Source of the DNA: a virus
Reading direction: 5' to 3' (one strand)
Virus record (IMG/VR): IMGVR_UViG_3300028025_003024
Coordinates: 1-35,540 of that record
DNA: 35,540 bases
The translations under genes were made by a program, and so were the position numbers. Of this stretch, positions 25,687 to 32,580 are shown one piece after another; the stretch's first letter is position 1, and every line of letters starts with the position of its first letter. The notes beneath the pieces are model-generated. The model did not search any database. It saw only the letters and a program-made list of their open reading frames with translations, and was not told the origin of the DNA.

Positions 25687-27268
25687 TCCATTCCCTCTTG
25701 ATAACTCTAAAAAACTTTCCATCGCGCTTGTATTCGATGGTGCTTGGGTGTTGCGCCTGGTTGAGATAGATCACCGTTTCTTCTAGCGATTGCCGACCCG
25801 TGAGCTGTGCGCCAGCCTGTTGCGCGATAGATGCCACGCGCTGAGCCGCCATCTCTCCGGCGTATCCGTTGTGCAGCACGGGGAAATACTCGGTGACAGC
25901 CGGGTCGCTCAGGCATCCGTAATAACTGCAGGCGATCATCTCTCTGCCGCTTGCCTTGCTGATGTGCTTGCGCCAACTCCAGCGGCTGACCTCCATATCA
26001 AACCCATTCACACCCATGATGTCATCGTTGTGGAGCTGGAGCTTCTTACGCTCTGGCTCTGGGAATGGATTGCCGCAGGAAGGGCACTCGCGGGCCGAGA
26101 TGGGGCACAGCTCGTTGCAGTTGTCGCAGACTTTGACCGGTGCCTCGCCATTTCCGTCGCCAGCCTTTGTCGGCGGTCGCACAGCGGTGATGGGGCCATG
26201 CGTTGCCACCACGCCAGCAAAGTCCAACACTAAGCAATGGTCGGTGTGGCTCTTGACGCGCATCCCGCGACCGGCCATCTGCACATAGAGGCTGGCGCTC
26301 ATGGTCGGACGCAACATGGCGATCAGATCAATGTCGGGATAGTCAAAGCCGGTCGTTAGCACGTTGGCGTTGGTGAGCGCTCGAATCTTTCCTGCTTTGA
26401 AGTCGGCCAGGATTTGCTCGCGCTCGGCTTTTGGCGTGTCGCCGGTCACGCACGCGGCCGGGATGCCGTGGATCAAATCCAGCACGACCGCTATGTTCTC
26501 GGCGTGTTTGACACCGGCGCAGAAAAAGAGCCAGGCCTTGCGATCGCCCGCCAGGCCAATCACCTCCTGCACCACGGCAAGATTGTTGTCGTCGGTATCG
26601 ACCGCAGCTTGCAGCTCGCTCTCGATAAACTCGCCGCCGCGCTTATGCACGCCAGACACATCTAAACGGGCCTTGGTGACCTTGGAGCGCAGGGTCGATA
26701 GGTAACCCTTGAACACCAGCTCCTCAATGCCAACCGGCTCAATGAGCGCGTCGAAGAGCGCGGGCTTGTCGGTGATGAGGCCGTGGCCCAGGCGGTACGG
26801 CGTGGCCGTTAGCCCCACAACGCGCAGCGCCGGGTTAATGCGCGTGAGGTCGCCGAGCAACTTGCGATAACCGCCTTCGTCTTTGTGATTGACTAGGTGG
26901 CATTCGTCAACGATCACCAGATCAATGTGGCCGAGCAGATCGGCCTTGCTACGCACCGATTGGATGCCAGCGAATGTGATCGGCTCGCCGAGCTGGCGTT
27001 TGCCAATGCTCGCCGAATAGATGCCCATTGGCGCACCAGGCCAATGCAGACGCATCTTTTCGGCATTCTGTTCGATCAGCTCTTTAACGTGCGTCAGCAT
27101 CAAGATGCGCGTCTCGGGCCAGGTCTGGATCGCGTCTTTGCATAGCGCCGCGACAATGTGGCTCTTGCCCGAGCCTGTGGGCAGCACTAGGCACGGGTTG
27201 CCTTTGTTGCCAGCGTCAAACCAAGCATAGAGCTGGTCGATGGCGCGCTGTTGGTATTCACGGAGCAT
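25670..27268 (-). CDS. SF2 DEAD/DEAH-box helicase with zinc finger
   Basis: 532 aa from ATG 27268 (AGGAGCATATCA upstream). Walker A PTGSGKS at residues 30-36, Walker B DECH at 121-124, motif III LTATP, motif VI QMAGRGMR, all in order. Near the C-terminus CDNCNELCPISARECPSCGNPFP provides a four-Cys zinc ribbon. From memory, similar DEAD helicases with a VRR-NUC neighbour are frequent in siphoviruses and podoviruses and probably act in origin opening, recombination or fork repair. Starts 11 nt inside the methyltransferase end. Confidence 0.92.
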   Translation of the reverse strand: MLREYQQRAIDQLYAWFDAGNKGNPCLVLPTGSGKSHIVAALCKDAIQTWPETRILMLTHVKELIEQNAEKMRLHWPGAPMGIYSASIGKRQLGEPITFAGIQSVRSKADLLGHIDLVIVDECHLVNHKDEGGYRKLLGDLTRINPALRVVGLTATPYRLGHGLITDKPALFDALIEPVGIEELVFKGYLSTLRSKVTKARLDVSGVHKRGGEFIESELQAAVDTDDNNLAVVQEVIGLAGDRKAWLFFCAGVKHAENIAVVLDLIHGIPAACVTGDTPKAEREQILADFKAGKIRALTNANVLTTGFDYPDIDLIAMLRPTMSASLYVQMAGRGMRVKSHTDHCLVLDFAGVVATHGPITAVRPPTKAGDGNGEAPVKVCDNCNELCPISARECPSCGNPFPEPERKKLQLHNDDIMGVNGFDMEVSRWSWRKHISKASGREMIACSYYGCLSDPAVTEYFPVLHNGYAGEMAAQRVASIAQQAGAQLTGRQSLEETVIYLNQAQHPSTIEYKRDGKFFRVIKREWNATTD

Positions 27269-28649
27269 TGATATGCTCCTGAATACGCTTGCCAATCCAG
27301 CGCACCACAGGCACGGCCCAGCTATTGCCAAGCGCCTTGTATCGAGGCCCATCTGGGCACTTGTCTTTGATGTGGGTGTAATTGTCGGGAAAGCCTTGCA
27401 GACGCTCGCACTCAACGGGGGTTAGGCGGCGGACTTGCATCCCAATATGAACGGCTGGTTTGTTGTTACCTCCTCCTCCAGCTTCTAGAGAGGGTGCCAT
27501 TTCATTTTCATATCCAATACTTCGGGCGGCAGCGGATTGTCCGGGCTTGAACGACCCGACCATCACAGTCGGGCCAGTTCCTGTGCCATCCGACCTGTGC
27601 GTAAGAGGAACCGCCACATCGCCAGTCATCGCGGCGTTGAATATGTCTATTCCAATGTGTTGCACTTGTGTTGGATGAAAGGCAATCGGCGCTTCATGGT
27701 TGCAAGTCAATGTCGGCGTGCGATCTGCTGCAATCTCAGCGCCGGCTTGGCCGTGGGCCATTGTCATGATGGGTTGAAAGGTGACCGGGACATTTCCTCC
27801 GCCAGTTCCGTATTTGCTGGTAACAGTAGAGCAAACATCTCCCAGGTCACGCACTCGGCTATCTTGCCCATGCATCTCATAGACGGGCCTCACAATCTGC
27901 AAAGACTCGCAACTGTCTACATCTCGGCCTGGCCCATTTGAGCCACCGCCGTTAGAGCATCCTGCAATTGTGGGGGCAACACTTTGCCGCGCTTCTCTGC
28001 TCGGCGCAATATCCCGGCGGAAGCCTTCGAACTCAAAAAGTACCGCTGCGGGATCGAAGTCTGCTCTAGCACTTGCGACAACGAACACACGGCGGCGTCG
28101 TTGGGCCACTCCGAAATATTGGGCGTCGAGGACTCGCCACGCGACTGCTCTTTTTTGTCCAACAACAACACCAGCGGTTGACCACTTCCCGTTTGGACAG
28201 GTAACCGGGTCAATCTCCCCTGCAAGCGCACCAATGAAGCAACCGAAGGCGTTGTCTTTGGTGTTGAGGACTCCAGGGACGTTTTCCCAGAAGATGATTG
28301 ATGAAGAATCTCCTCGAACAGATCGAACATGGTCAATTGCATTGGCTATTCCTACGAATGTGAGCGAAAGATTGCCCCTGTCGTCATTCAATGATTGACG
28401 CAGACCGGCTACGGAAAACGCCTGGCACGGCGTACCACCACAGAAAATTTCAGGCGCTTCTATTTCTCCAGAAAGAATCCGATCTGGTAGCGCCGTCATA
28501 TCCCCGAGGTTTGGCGTATCAGGATAGTGGTGCGCCAGCACAGAGGAGGGAAACTTCTCAATCTCCGAGAACCATGCGGCTTTCCAGCCCAGCGATTCCC
28601 AAGCAACGCTGGCGGCTTCAATGCCTGAGCAGACAGAACCGAATCTCAT
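27258..28649 (-). CDS. DNA cytosine-5 methyltransferase
   Basis: 463 aa, m5C methyltransferase acting on duplex DNA with SAM. Motif I FGSVCSGIEA (residues 3-12), motif IV GGTPCQAFSVAG with nucleophile Cys75, motif VI ENV (122-124), motif VIII QRRRR (183-187), C-terminal RLTPVECERLQGFPD (motif IX) and ALGNSWAVPV (motif X). Residues about 220-400, the target-recognition region, contain several repeats of a PT(L/V/I)..-type unit with GGGN loops. It may protect phage DNA from host restriction. A second gene lies inside it in another frame (27917-28342). Starts within the nuclease stop. Confidence 0.93.
   Translation of the reverse strand: MRFGSVCSGIEAASVAWESLGWKAAWFSEIEKFPSSVLAHHYPDTPNLGDMTALPDRILSGEIEAPEIFCGGTPCQAFSVAGLRQSLNDDRGNLSLTFVGIANAIDHVRSVRGDSSSIIFWENVPGVLNTKDNAFGCFIGALAGEIDPVTCPNGKWSTAGVVVGQKRAVAWRVLDAQYFGVAQRRRRVFVVASARADFDPAAVLFEFEGFRRDIAPSREARQSVAPTIAGCSNGGGSNGPGRDVDSCESLQIVRPVYEMHGQDSRVRDLGDVCSTVTSKYGTGGGNVPVTFQPIMTMAHGQAGAEIAADRTPTLTCNHEAPIAFHPTQVQHIGIDIFNAAMTGDVAVPLTHRSDGTGTGPTVMVGSFKPGQSAAARSIGYENEMAPSLEAGGGGNNKPAVHIGMQVRRLTPVECERLQGFPDNYTHIKDKCPDGPRYKALGNSWAVPVVRWIGKRIQEHINAP
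27917..28342 (-). CDS. Overprinted gene nested in the methyltransferase (+1 frame)
   Basis: 141-codon open frame, same strand as the methyltransferase and shifted +1 nt relative to it, inside its codons about 103-245. It starts at ATG 28342 behind AGGA with a 7-nt spacer, i.e. its own ribosome site. The C-terminal half reads NISEWPNDAAVCSLSQVLE then IPQRYFLSSKASAGILRRAEKR, and the N-terminal half SSSGKTSLESSTPKTTPS. From memory, phages and prophages encode proteins with RYFLS.KACAGILRRAEKRGK..P, so this frame looks conserved as protein. Function unknown. Alternatively it is a frozen shadow maintained by methyltransferase conservation. Confidence 0.65.
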   Translation of the reverse strand: MQLTMFDLFEEILHQSSSGKTSLESSTPKTTPSVASLVRLQGRLTRLPVQTGSGQPLVLLLDKKEQSRGESSTPNISEWPNDAAVCSLSQVLEQTSIPQRYFLSSKASAGILRRAEKRGKVLPPQLQDALTAVAQMGQAEM

Positions 28650-29674
28650 CCGACGATCCTCCCGTCGAACTCATTGCGAAGTTGGGTCAATTGTTCGCTC
28701 GGATTCGCGCACGCCGACGGGTTCGCCAATATCTCGCGGCTGGTGTAGACATGGGCATCACCCTGCCCATTGGCAACATCTTTGCCGTCAATTACATAGA
28801 CCGCCGTCCAATCGTCGAGGCCGTCTTTACGCTCCCACGGTACGAGGTCTGGGTGTAGCGTATGGCTCTCGCAGGCGTTGCGTTGGAATTCAATCGGAAT
28901 ACCGTCGGCCTCGTGTAGCTCGCAACGCCAGGTGCTATCGGCCTTGGCGGTGCTATGCGCGCAGGTGCGGCAATTGACGTGTTTCGTTAGCCTGGTGCTG
29001 TGGCAGAACTCATGCGCGTCACAGAACTTGCATTGGTACCACGATGGATCGGTGCTGATCGGTGGCGGCATCCGGTCTGCGAGCGCCAGGTAATGACCGC
29101 GACGAATATACTTTTCGGCGGTTTCCTTGTCATATCGGACGCGTTCTGTATAGATTTCGTCGTTGTCTTTGCAGACGGCGACGTACAAAGCGCGGTCGAT
29201 TTTGGTGCCGTGCATATACAGTTGCATCTGCACGAAATGCTCGGGCTTTGATTTCTCTACGCCGTGTTTCTCGAGGTCGTCAAATGACTTCTTGCTGTGC
29301 GTCTTGAACTCGGCGATGTGGCGTTTCTTCGGTGCCTCGGGCACGCCAGACTCAATGATCGCGTCAATGCTCCCGGAAACGTGAGCGCCAAGGTCAACGC
29401 GCTGTTGCTTGGGGCCGGTCATGCGTAGGTCAAGGCCGATGGCGCGTAGGTCGCTGACAATCGTTGCCTCTTCGTTCTGTCCACGCCGGAACAGGCGCAG
29501 GACGCGACCGGGGAACTTCGGCTGCACGGCCCACCGAAATGACAGCCACAACCACCGGTCGCAGGGGTGACCGAGCTGGCTGCACCCCATATGACCCCTT
29601 GGCGGCTCGGCAAGCGATTCGTGATGCTTGTCAATCAGCGCCTGTATGCTATTCTCTGCTTCGGGTAACTTCAT
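28646..29674 (-). CDS. PD-(D/E)XK nuclease (Cas4/RecB-like exonuclease)
   Basis: 342 aa from ATG 29674 (AAGGAGCGGGCAA upstream). The core shows Asp104 in HVSGSIDAII and Glu122-x-Lys124 in IAEFKTH, followed by the HFVQMQLYMHG helix (QxxxY-type), which is the PD-(D/E)XK order. A C-terminal Cys-rich region (QCKFCDAHEFCHSTRLTKHVNCRTCAHS, about 225-250) may bind zinc or an Fe-S cluster, as in Cas4-type enzymes. An N-terminal Cys pair (GCSQLGHPCDR) may complete it. Likely resects DNA for the annealing system encoded upstream. Confidence 0.85.
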   Translation of the reverse strand: MKLPEAENSIQALIDKHHESLAEPPRGHMGCSQLGHPCDRWLWLSFRWAVQPKFPGRVLRLFRRGQNEEATIVSDLRAIGLDLRMTGPKQQRVDLGAHVSGSIDAIIESGVPEAPKKRHIAEFKTHSKKSFDDLEKHGVEKSKPEHFVQMQLYMHGTKIDRALYVAVCKDNDEIYTERVRYDKETAEKYIRRGHYLALADRMPPPISTDPSWYQCKFCDAHEFCHSTRLTKHVNCRTCAHSTAKADSTWRCELHEADGIPIEFQRNACESHTLHPDLVPWERKDGLDDWTAVYVIDGKDVANGQGDAHVYTSREILANPSACANPSEQLTQLRNEFDGRIVG

Positions 29675-29704
29675 TTGCCCGCTCCTTGTTTGAGTTGACC
29701 ATTT

Positions 29705-29732
29705 CCCCCGGCTAAACACCGGGGGATTTTTT
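29705..29732 (+). terminator. Intrinsic terminator facing + between minus-strand genes
   Basis: CCCCCGG (29705-29711) pairs perfectly with CCGGGGG (29719-29725) around a 7-nt loop, followed on the + strand by ATTTTTT. It is therefore a rho-independent terminator for + strand transcripts, although both neighbouring genes are read from the - strand. On the minus strand the same hairpin lies in the leader of the nuclease gene and lacks a T tract. Confidence 0.65.
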
Positions 29733-31565: not shown

Positions 31566-31745
31566 ATGACTACAAAGGAAGCCGTTGCCTTCTATGGCGG
31601 CGTGAAGAAGCTAGCAGACGAACTTGGCGTCTGGCCGCAGGTGATCTACGCTTGGGGAGAACGACCGCCCATGTCTCGCCAGTACGAGCTGGAGGTCAAG
31701 ACAAATCACCAACTGAAGGCAGACACGGAGAAAGAGCTTGGCTGA
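31566..31745 (+). CDS. Cro-like small helix-turn-helix regulator
   Basis: 59 aa from ATG 31566 (AAAGGTCAAG upstream). The sequence TTKEAVAFYGGVKKLADELGVWPQVIYAWGERPPMSRQYELEVKT has the Cro-type helix-turn-helix: LADELGVWPQVIYAWG is the recognition unit, and the P..RQ.ELE helix is typical of the family. No partner CI repressor is present in the window, so it may simply turn down the early promoter. An earlier ATG at 31527 would lie inside the promoter. Confidence 0.8.
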   Translation: MTTKEAVAFYGGVKKLADELGVWPQVIYAWGERPPMSRQYELEVKTNHQLKADTEKELG

Positions 31746-32580
31746 CCCGTTCAAAATCATAGACCGCACTTGCATCAGCTTCAGCGGAGGACGCACCAGC
31801 GCCTATATGCTGTGGCGCGTTCTGCAATCGAACAATGGCTTACCAGATGAGGCAATCGTTTGCTTCGCTAACACCGGCAAGGAAGAAGAAGCCACGCTCA
31901 AGTTTGTAGATAGGTGCAGCAAAGAATGGGGAGTGCCGATCACTTGGGTTGAGTACAGAGACGCTGAAGAAACGAAAGATAGGTTTCAGGTCGTTACATT
32001 TGAGACGGCCAGCCGTAACGGCGAGCCCTTTGAGGCAATCATCCGCAAGCGCAACTATTTGCCCAATCCGGTGAGCCGGTTTTGCACCGTAGAGATGAAG
32101 GTGCGGGCGATTCATCGCTACCTGAAATCAATCGGCTGGACAGAGTGGGAGTCAATGCTTGGCATTCGCGCCGATGAGCAGAGGCGTCTAGCCAAGATTG
32201 GCAATCAGGACTACGGCAAGCATGAGGAGAAGATTGCTCCATTGGGCCGTGTTGGAATCACCAAAGAGGACGTTGGCGCTTTCTGGAGGGCACAACCGTT
32301 TGACCTTGGGCTTCCCAACATGAATGGCGTCACCATGCATGGGAACTGTGATCTGTGTTATCTCAAGGGCGGCGCACAAATTCTTAGCCTCATACAAGAA
32401 AAACCCGAGCGCGCAGTTTGGTGGGCCAAGATGGAGGCGTTGGCGTTGGCGTCTGCGCCGTCTGGTGCCAAATTCCGCACCGACCGCCCTAGCTACGCCG
32501 AGATGGCAAAGTTCGCCGCAGAGCAGCGTGATATGTTTGACAAGAACGAAGAGGCGATTGCCTGCTTCTGTGGAGACTAA
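31738..32580 (+). CDS. PAPS reductase-like ATP pyrophosphatase family protein
   Basis: 280 aa from a TTG overlapping the regulator stop. It has the PP-loop SGGRTS at residues 16-21, NTGKEEEATLKFV, then YLPNPVSRFCTVEMKVRAIHRYL and LGIRADEQRR, the usual PAPS-reductase-superfamily order. Late cysteines CDLC (204, 207) and CFC (276, 278) form a possible Fe-S or zinc site. The family binds and pyrophosphorylates or reduces adenylyl-sulfur substrates. In phages the actual role is not known; DNA or tRNA sulfur modification and salvage are options. It precedes the primase. Confidence 0.8.
   Translation: MADPFKIIDRTCISFSGGRTSAYMLWRVLQSNNGLPDEAIVCFANTGKEEEATLKFVDRCSKEWGVPITWVEYRDAEETKDRFQVVTFETASRNGEPFEAIIRKRNYLPNPVSRFCTVEMKVRAIHRYLKSIGWTEWESMLGIRADEQRRLAKIGNQDYGKHEEKIAPLGRVGITKEDVGAFWRAQPFDLGLPNMNGVTMHGNCDLCYLKGGAQILSLIQEKPERAVWWAKMEALALASAPSGAKFRTDRPSYAEMAKFAAEQRDMFDKNEEAIACFCGD

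Follow-up and report, generated by a model that had tools for sequence, protein, structure and literature searches.

M.EcoHK31I is a C5 cytosine methyltransferase (MTase) specific for YGGCCR. Its two genes are said, from work by Lee and colleagues in 1995, to be nested, with the second polypeptide read in another frame and lengths of 309 and 176 amino acids. The enzyme is made of two polypeptides, the smaller of which bears only motif IX, the motif that the alpha polypeptide lacks (PMC3404938), and a 1995 title by Lee in the references of the same article states that the two proteins are required. M.AquI is also a two-polypeptide C5 MTase, but a simple split one with motifs IX-X on its second chain (PMC3404938); its description, which is all that we compared, includes no overlapping-frame domain of the kind reported here. 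The bifunctional MTase gene of phage P1, dmt, can be dispensed with for plaque formation under laboratory conditions (PMC10695390), as expected for a modification function. We found no description of nesting in phage MTases in the literature searched.

The window, meaning the whole stretch of DNA analysed, is a 35.5-kb virus record with genes for terminase, portal, tail, helicase, primase and exonuclease functions. Its C5 MTase is complete, a single frame holding motifs IV, VI, VIII, IX and X, and the next gene on the minus strand is a helicase; further along, a PAPS reductase-like gene (phrog_424, 31738-32580) lies immediately 5' of the primase gene. The features of the locus are:

27258..28649, minus strand: C5 cytosine MTase, 463 aa (PF00145, E=1.7e-38; phrog_116, E=7e-92; motif positions)
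28646-29719, minus strand: Cas4-like exonuclease gene, with a 4-nt overlap with the MTase start codon
28278..28286, minus strand: MTase motif VI (ENV), inside the nested-gene overlap
28089..28103, minus strand: MTase motif VIII (QRRRR), inside the nested-gene overlap
27390..27431, minus strand: MTase motif IX (RRLTPVECERLQGF, residues 407-420), main frame, outside the nested gene
27917..28342, minus strand: nested gene, 141 aa (P0001), +1 frame of the MTase, proposed beta-like MTase partner
28340..28342, minus strand: nested start codon ATG, formed by the MTase Asn codon AAT plus G
28350..28353, minus strand: AGGA, Shine-Dalgarno-like site 7 nt 5' of the nested ATG
27938..28093, minus strand: conserved C-terminal helical domain, nested residues 84-135 (LSQVLE..RYFLS..AGILRRAEKRGK.LP), from near-frozen synonymous codons, AlphaFold and similarity to an E. 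coli nested polypeptide

A preliminary description of this DNA had reported a 141-codon +1 frame inside the MTase, its ATG preceded by AGGA at a distance of 7 nt, covering motifs VI and VIII and ending in a motif thought to recur in phage proteins. All three points are confirmed: the ORF runs from ATG to TAG, the motif positions place VI and VIII within it, and the motif IPQRYFLSSKASAGILRRAEKR is present, with relatives of the nested protein recovered by tblastn from 153 phage records and 413 IMG/VR stretches. Taken alone, the ORF is only mildly unusual. With the codons of the window gene shuffled synonymously, the exact stretch stayed open in 2.3% of shuffles and a +1 ORF of equal length arose somewhere in 9.8%, so that chance remains possible (2-10%), and the antisense frames of the same gene also contain open stretches of 150 and 171 codons. 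Since its length is within chance, the case for coding rests on comparison rather than on ORF length.

For this comparison we used 101 non-redundant phage MTases, chosen by MTase queries or similarity of the enzyme only, and counted stop codons from motif VI to 18 codons beyond the ILFE motif, with synonymous-codon shuffles providing the expectation. Frame +1 had no stops in this span (159.8 expected) and was open in 101 of 101 genes (23.5 expected). In control stretches the same frame held 233 stops upstream (263 expected) and 410 downstream (328 expected), and frame +2 of the 101 genes held 352 (450 expected). When synonymous codon entropy at conserved MTase residues was expressed as observed over expected, the ratios for class A (window and P1 types), class B (Caulobacter DMCA type) and class C (Firmicutes type) were 0.92, 0.83 and 0.87 before the nested gene, 0.67, 0.57 and 0.65 in its N part, and 0.25, 0.33 and 0.35 in its C part. 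Many MTase codons are invariant at the wobble position, which is the second position of the nested frame.

Frame-specific rates, estimated in OLGenie style from independent pairs with bootstrap, gave the same picture. In the C part, nested dSN/dSS was 0.16 (0.12-0.21) in class A, 0.23 (0.16-0.35) in class B and 0.20 (0.14-0.35) in class C, with dNN/dNS of 0.21-0.24 across the three, while dSN/dSS was 0.51, 0.73 and 0.93 in the upstream controls and 0.91, 0.53 (wide interval) and 0.90 downstream. Overall, nested-frame rates were 0.51-1.10 in controls vs 0.16-0.24 in the C part, where the bootstrap intervals do not meet those of the upstream controls in any of the three classes. The nested N part is weakly constrained (0.26-0.61). 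The MTase frame is itself relaxed in the C-part segment (0.27-0.33 vs 0.09-0.18 outside), and by point estimates constraint on the nested frame here matches or exceeds that on the enzyme. Doubly synonymous sites evolve at 0.71 in the nested C part and 0.74 upstream; because these sites vary freely, no constraint at the RNA level is needed, and an RNA or DNA signal is ruled out as the cause.

A further control kept the MTase protein fixed, shuffled its synonymous codons 300 times and scored the nested frame against a profile of the nested family. In 14 of 15 MTases the natural score exceeded all 300 shuffles, with 177 bits for the window (44 +/- 10 in shuffles; the window is among the 94 rows of the profile) and 156 bits for P1 (34 in shuffles); the fifteenth, the interrupted MTase of Mycobacterium phage Thibault, had been scored in the wrong frame and was disregarded. 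Relatives were unevenly sampled, and apart from the independent-pair test no tree correction was applied; a sample of one gammaproteobacterial class was too sparse for an estimate of prevalence. An overprinted gene, as the preliminary description had proposed, would have been refuted by +1 stops in relatives, by homologues that were mere shadows of the MTase or by the lack of codon-level constraint beyond that of the enzyme. The proposal survived all three: no stops occur in 101 relatives where about 160 were expected, the synonymous-shuffle control sets the homologues apart from shadows, although all but one degenerate copy are confined to MTase genes, and the second frame is under purifying selection (dN/dS 0.16-0.24 in the C part), with codon-level constraint far above that of the enzyme. 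We consider it nearly certain that the nested ORF is a genuine and ancient protein-coding gene in the C5 MTases of tailed phages, with translation in vivo being inferred in the absence of expression data.

The start site is also conserved, to a degree that differs between classes. Within the span searched, every one of the 46 class A genes offers an ATG, vs 41% expected under synonymous recoding; it is built in the expected place from AAT|G or GAT|G, with AAT at the Asn column in 31 of 32, and the enrichment of Shine-Dalgarno-like sites is modest. All 23 class C genes likewise have the ATG (51% expected), preceded by GAGGTG or GAGGG, and their predicted Shine-Dalgarno pairing is -9.2 kcal/mol vs -3.9 expected from recoded controls. 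In class B the nested start lies earlier, before motif IV, the ATG proposed for it is conserved in no more than 31 of 40, and a search for a Shine-Dalgarno excess over recoded controls gave no clear one. For P1 the scan took another ATG upstream; GGAG precedes the family-aligned ATG at a distance of 7 nt. From these sequence features, internal initiation at the nested ATG appears likely, with the strongest case in class C.

The nested protein has no family match in Pfam, NCBIfam or PADLOC, the curated models in which known defence and counter-defence families were sought. PHROG 16143 (139 positions), annotated only as 'DNA methyltransferase' with no statement of nesting, matches 62 of 103 nested proteins (best E=9.7e-10) and the window protein weakly (E=9.5e-4), and it probably collects nested ORFs reported by some gene callers. 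AlphaFold, given an alignment without the rows from annotated phage records, modelled residues 1-86 of the window protein as poorly ordered and residues 101-130, within C-terminal helices, with pLDDT 93-97; a protein of the Firmicutes class gave the same C-terminal helices and a weak model elsewhere. The protein would have an N-terminal part that is rich in Ser/Thr and poorly ordered, and a C-terminal domain that is small, basic and helical. A fold search of the PDB with the model found no match, and the best match among the viral folds of BFVD was gp104 of phage Thibault (G1FGG9).

Each of the first 85 loci that we looked at has a C5 MTase with the nested ORF open in the same +1 frame; among them are phage P1 dmt, phages of Vibrio, Pectobacterium and Enterobacter, and environmental phages. 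Further carriers are phages of Ruminococcus, Streptococcus, Faecalibacterium, Mycobacterium, Caulobacter and Brevundimonas, and the hosts span several phyla. In genomes, all 80 relatives found by a profile search with the nested protein are in frame +1 of a C5 MTase, and among all loci fetched 527 of 528 nested-domain ORFs have the MTase in frame -1. No stand-alone homologue was seen in the 80 genome loci, in 80 IMG/VR loci also found with the nested protein, or in the set of 528 with the exception of one copy, a degenerate deletion in Vibrio phage 1.088. Annotated records that we inspected show only the MTase at the locus, except for Thibault gp104 and Faecalibacterium phage Toutatis gp14. 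Phage ZF40 had seemed to have lost the frame through two stops, which was ruled out, as its nested ORF merely starts later. Prevalence is low outside phage-type MTases: of 59 chromosomal MTases taken at random, just 2 carry the nested domain, ruling out a general property of C5 MTases.

Some relatives are highly diverged. Three distant MTases (L518:1174-1767, L519:1276-1746 and L511:1276-1767) are without ILFE in the main frame and keep the nested-frame motif (ECTLSEVLE..KYYLS), with nested-frame scores above all synonymous shuffles. In jumbo phages of Brevundimonas (L091:2267-2674) and Caulobacter (L093:2249-2698) the nested C-termini have strongly diverged (LLANARAAGRTLS), and despite this they score far above shuffles.

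The P1 gene, which in addition to the C5 MTase encodes a Dam domain, contains a 157-aa nested ORF (ATG at AF234172 position 66728) that shares 49% identity with the window protein across the aligned region and is missing from the P1 annotation; about 519 P1-like plasmid records contain the greater part of this protein. In some other phages the locus looks different. In Thibault (L087:1320-3121) an HNH endonuclease gene interrupts the MTase just after motif VIII, and gp104, an annotated ORF with the same C-terminal domain as the window protein, is the C-terminal piece only. In Toutatis (L088:2066-3477) and Lelie (L094), both Faecalibacterium phages, the MTase is split by a frame change in a Gly-rich stretch that joins MTase parts to nested-frame parts, making Toutatis gp14 a hybrid; phase variation, mutation or sequencing error could each be the cause. 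In Pseudomonas abyssi (L433:2372-3652) and a Bosea MAG (L473:2174-4246) the nested frame continues, after a frame change, into the usual C-terminal half of the MTase, to which the nested domain is thereby fused. A frameshift-linked relation or a fusion near the C-terminal part of the MTase had been anticipated, and L433, L473 and Toutatis now provide examples. The L433 and L473 fusions resemble Rosetta-stone cases and point to a partner role, but they may be assembly errors or mutations.

A key relative is found in gammaproteobacteria. A C5 MTase recovered by profile match (L510) has a 304-aa main frame without motif IX and a 186-aa +1 ORF in which the nested domain is followed by motif IX, and relatives of this MTase occur in 106 of 5,426 complete E. 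coli genomes. In one E. coli locus (L533) the MTase has 309 aa, again without motif IX, and the +1 ORF is exactly 176 aa from its first Met and includes motif IX (RRMLPSEYERLQGF); a NotI-family endonuclease adjoins it. We take L533 to be EcoHK31I-like on account of its layout and the reported lengths, having no sequence match to the published gene. As for the beta polypeptide of M.EcoHK31I, whose nesting is reported and is directly visible in L533 and L510, the phage protein is read from an overlapping frame inside a C5 MTase, and with L533 it shares both the +1 frame and the helical domain. In hhalign comparisons the phage nested family matched the 176-aa polypeptide with 98.0% probability (E=2.3e-13, 35% identity, 69 columns) and the Firmicutes nested family matched it with E=9.8e-12. 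This similarity is not a shadow of the MTase, as the E. coli nested frame scored 49 bits vs 6.3 in synonymous shuffles (maximum 27.5). Between L510 and L533, a single pair, dNN/dNS is 0.52 in the +1 ORF vs 1.08 before it, and the ORF looks constrained.

The position of motif IX sets the two systems apart. In EcoHK31I it is on beta, whereas in the window and in the phage MTases that were motif-checked it stays with the main frame, beyond the end of the nested protein. Motifs IX and X of the window both belong to the MTase frame, and the motif check found no motif IX in the nested protein, which is thus not a strict EcoHK31I beta. An actinobacterial chromosomal locus (L586) has a main frame like that of the 309-aa E. 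coli MTase, with motif IX kept and the nested domain present; this combination suggests an order in which the nested protein preceded the transfer of motif IX, with L586 as a possible intermediate.

Given the domain shared with the E. coli nested polypeptide and the natural fusions, we propose that the phage protein is an ancient, beta-like accessory subunit of the C5 MTase, a reading to which we assign a probability of roughly 70%; binding and any effect on methylation are inferred, with no expression or binding data. The protein would be translated from its own start site within the MTase mRNA, bind the phage MTase made from that mRNA and help in assembly, stability or DNA engagement; its C-terminal domain is homologous to the EcoHK31I-like beta over the N-terminal two thirds of the latter. 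As the E. coli polypeptide can provide motif IX only by pairing with alpha, the shared domain is plausibly a docking module. Against a partner role, the phage MTase has motif IX in frame, so the known role of EcoHK31I beta is unneeded; the lack of a PDB fold match and the dispensability of P1 dmt for plaques also count against it. The preliminary description had offered an anti-restriction protein or an MTase partner as fitting functions; the latter fits, with the same domain in an EcoHK31I-like nested subunit, while nothing points to the former.

A real protein whose function is unrelated to the enzyme, such as anti-restriction or host takeover, could travel with the MTase simply because both help the phage. 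The nested frame is indeed conserved as protein, it encodes a small basic helical domain, and phage MTases are themselves counter-restriction genes. However, a free-standing activity should sometimes separate from the MTase, and all but one degenerate copy of 528 are inside it; for anti-restriction in particular, the occurrence of the same domain in a nested polypeptide of an MTase from a restriction-modification system, next to the NotI-family endonuclease of that system, would be unlikely, and the defence library gave no match. We regard an unrelated function as unlikely. It is still harder to support a regulator outside the enzyme complex, through which the protein or its translation would tune MTase synthesis by autorepression or translational coupling. 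Sharing an mRNA while having its own start would suit such a role, as would the control that phage MTase dosage often needs, but pure translational coupling would not preserve the amino-acid sequence of the C-terminal domain, and the E. coli homologue contains motif IX of the catalytic fold and hence must act as part of the enzyme.

Programmed ribosomal frameshifting from the MTase, yielding a hybrid protein in place of internal initiation, has natural in-frame hybrids in its favor (Toutatis gp14 and L433); yet, without a search for a common slippery site, the conserved ATG with its Shine-Dalgarno-like site, and the stops that in most class A genes close the nested frame shortly upstream of the ATG, make it very improbable. 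Least credible is an MTase shadow, a frame kept open and conserved only by enzyme residues and codon usage or by an RNA or DNA signal. The overlap does span conserved motifs VI and VIII, and the window ORF alone is within chance. With the enzyme sequence fixed, though, 160 stops were expected and none found, wobble positions are nearly frozen while doubly synonymous sites vary, nested-frame scores far exceed synonymous shuffles, and the feature is in only 2 of 59 random chromosomal MTases, so that the synonymous-shuffle and frame-specific tests rule out a chance or shadow ORF.

Recoding destroys the nested frame, so that, if the phage protein is an accessory subunit, phage C5 MTases studied in recoded or codon-optimised form would have been without their natural partner, the loss of which could account for inactive recombinant enzymes. 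Annotation misses the nested gene in a textbook phage (P1 dmt) as well as in many prophages, which is a clear warning for gene callers and recoding projects, and long, ancient, same-strand overlapping genes have rarely been established in bacteria and their DNA phages. The locus also bears on the evolutionary route to naturally split methyltransferases. We would put at about even odds a wider scenario in which an overprinted second subunit is ancient in a large clade of C5 MTases, both phage and mobile ones, has been selected at least as strongly as the enzyme in the overlap, and gave rise to EcoHK31I-type two-polypeptide enzymes through a move of motif IX into the nested frame, genes like L586 being the intermediates. 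Among the MTases collected, the prophage-type C5 MTase of Metarhizobium album (L472:1072-3657) contains an intein-like insertion exactly at the catalytic PC|Q motif.
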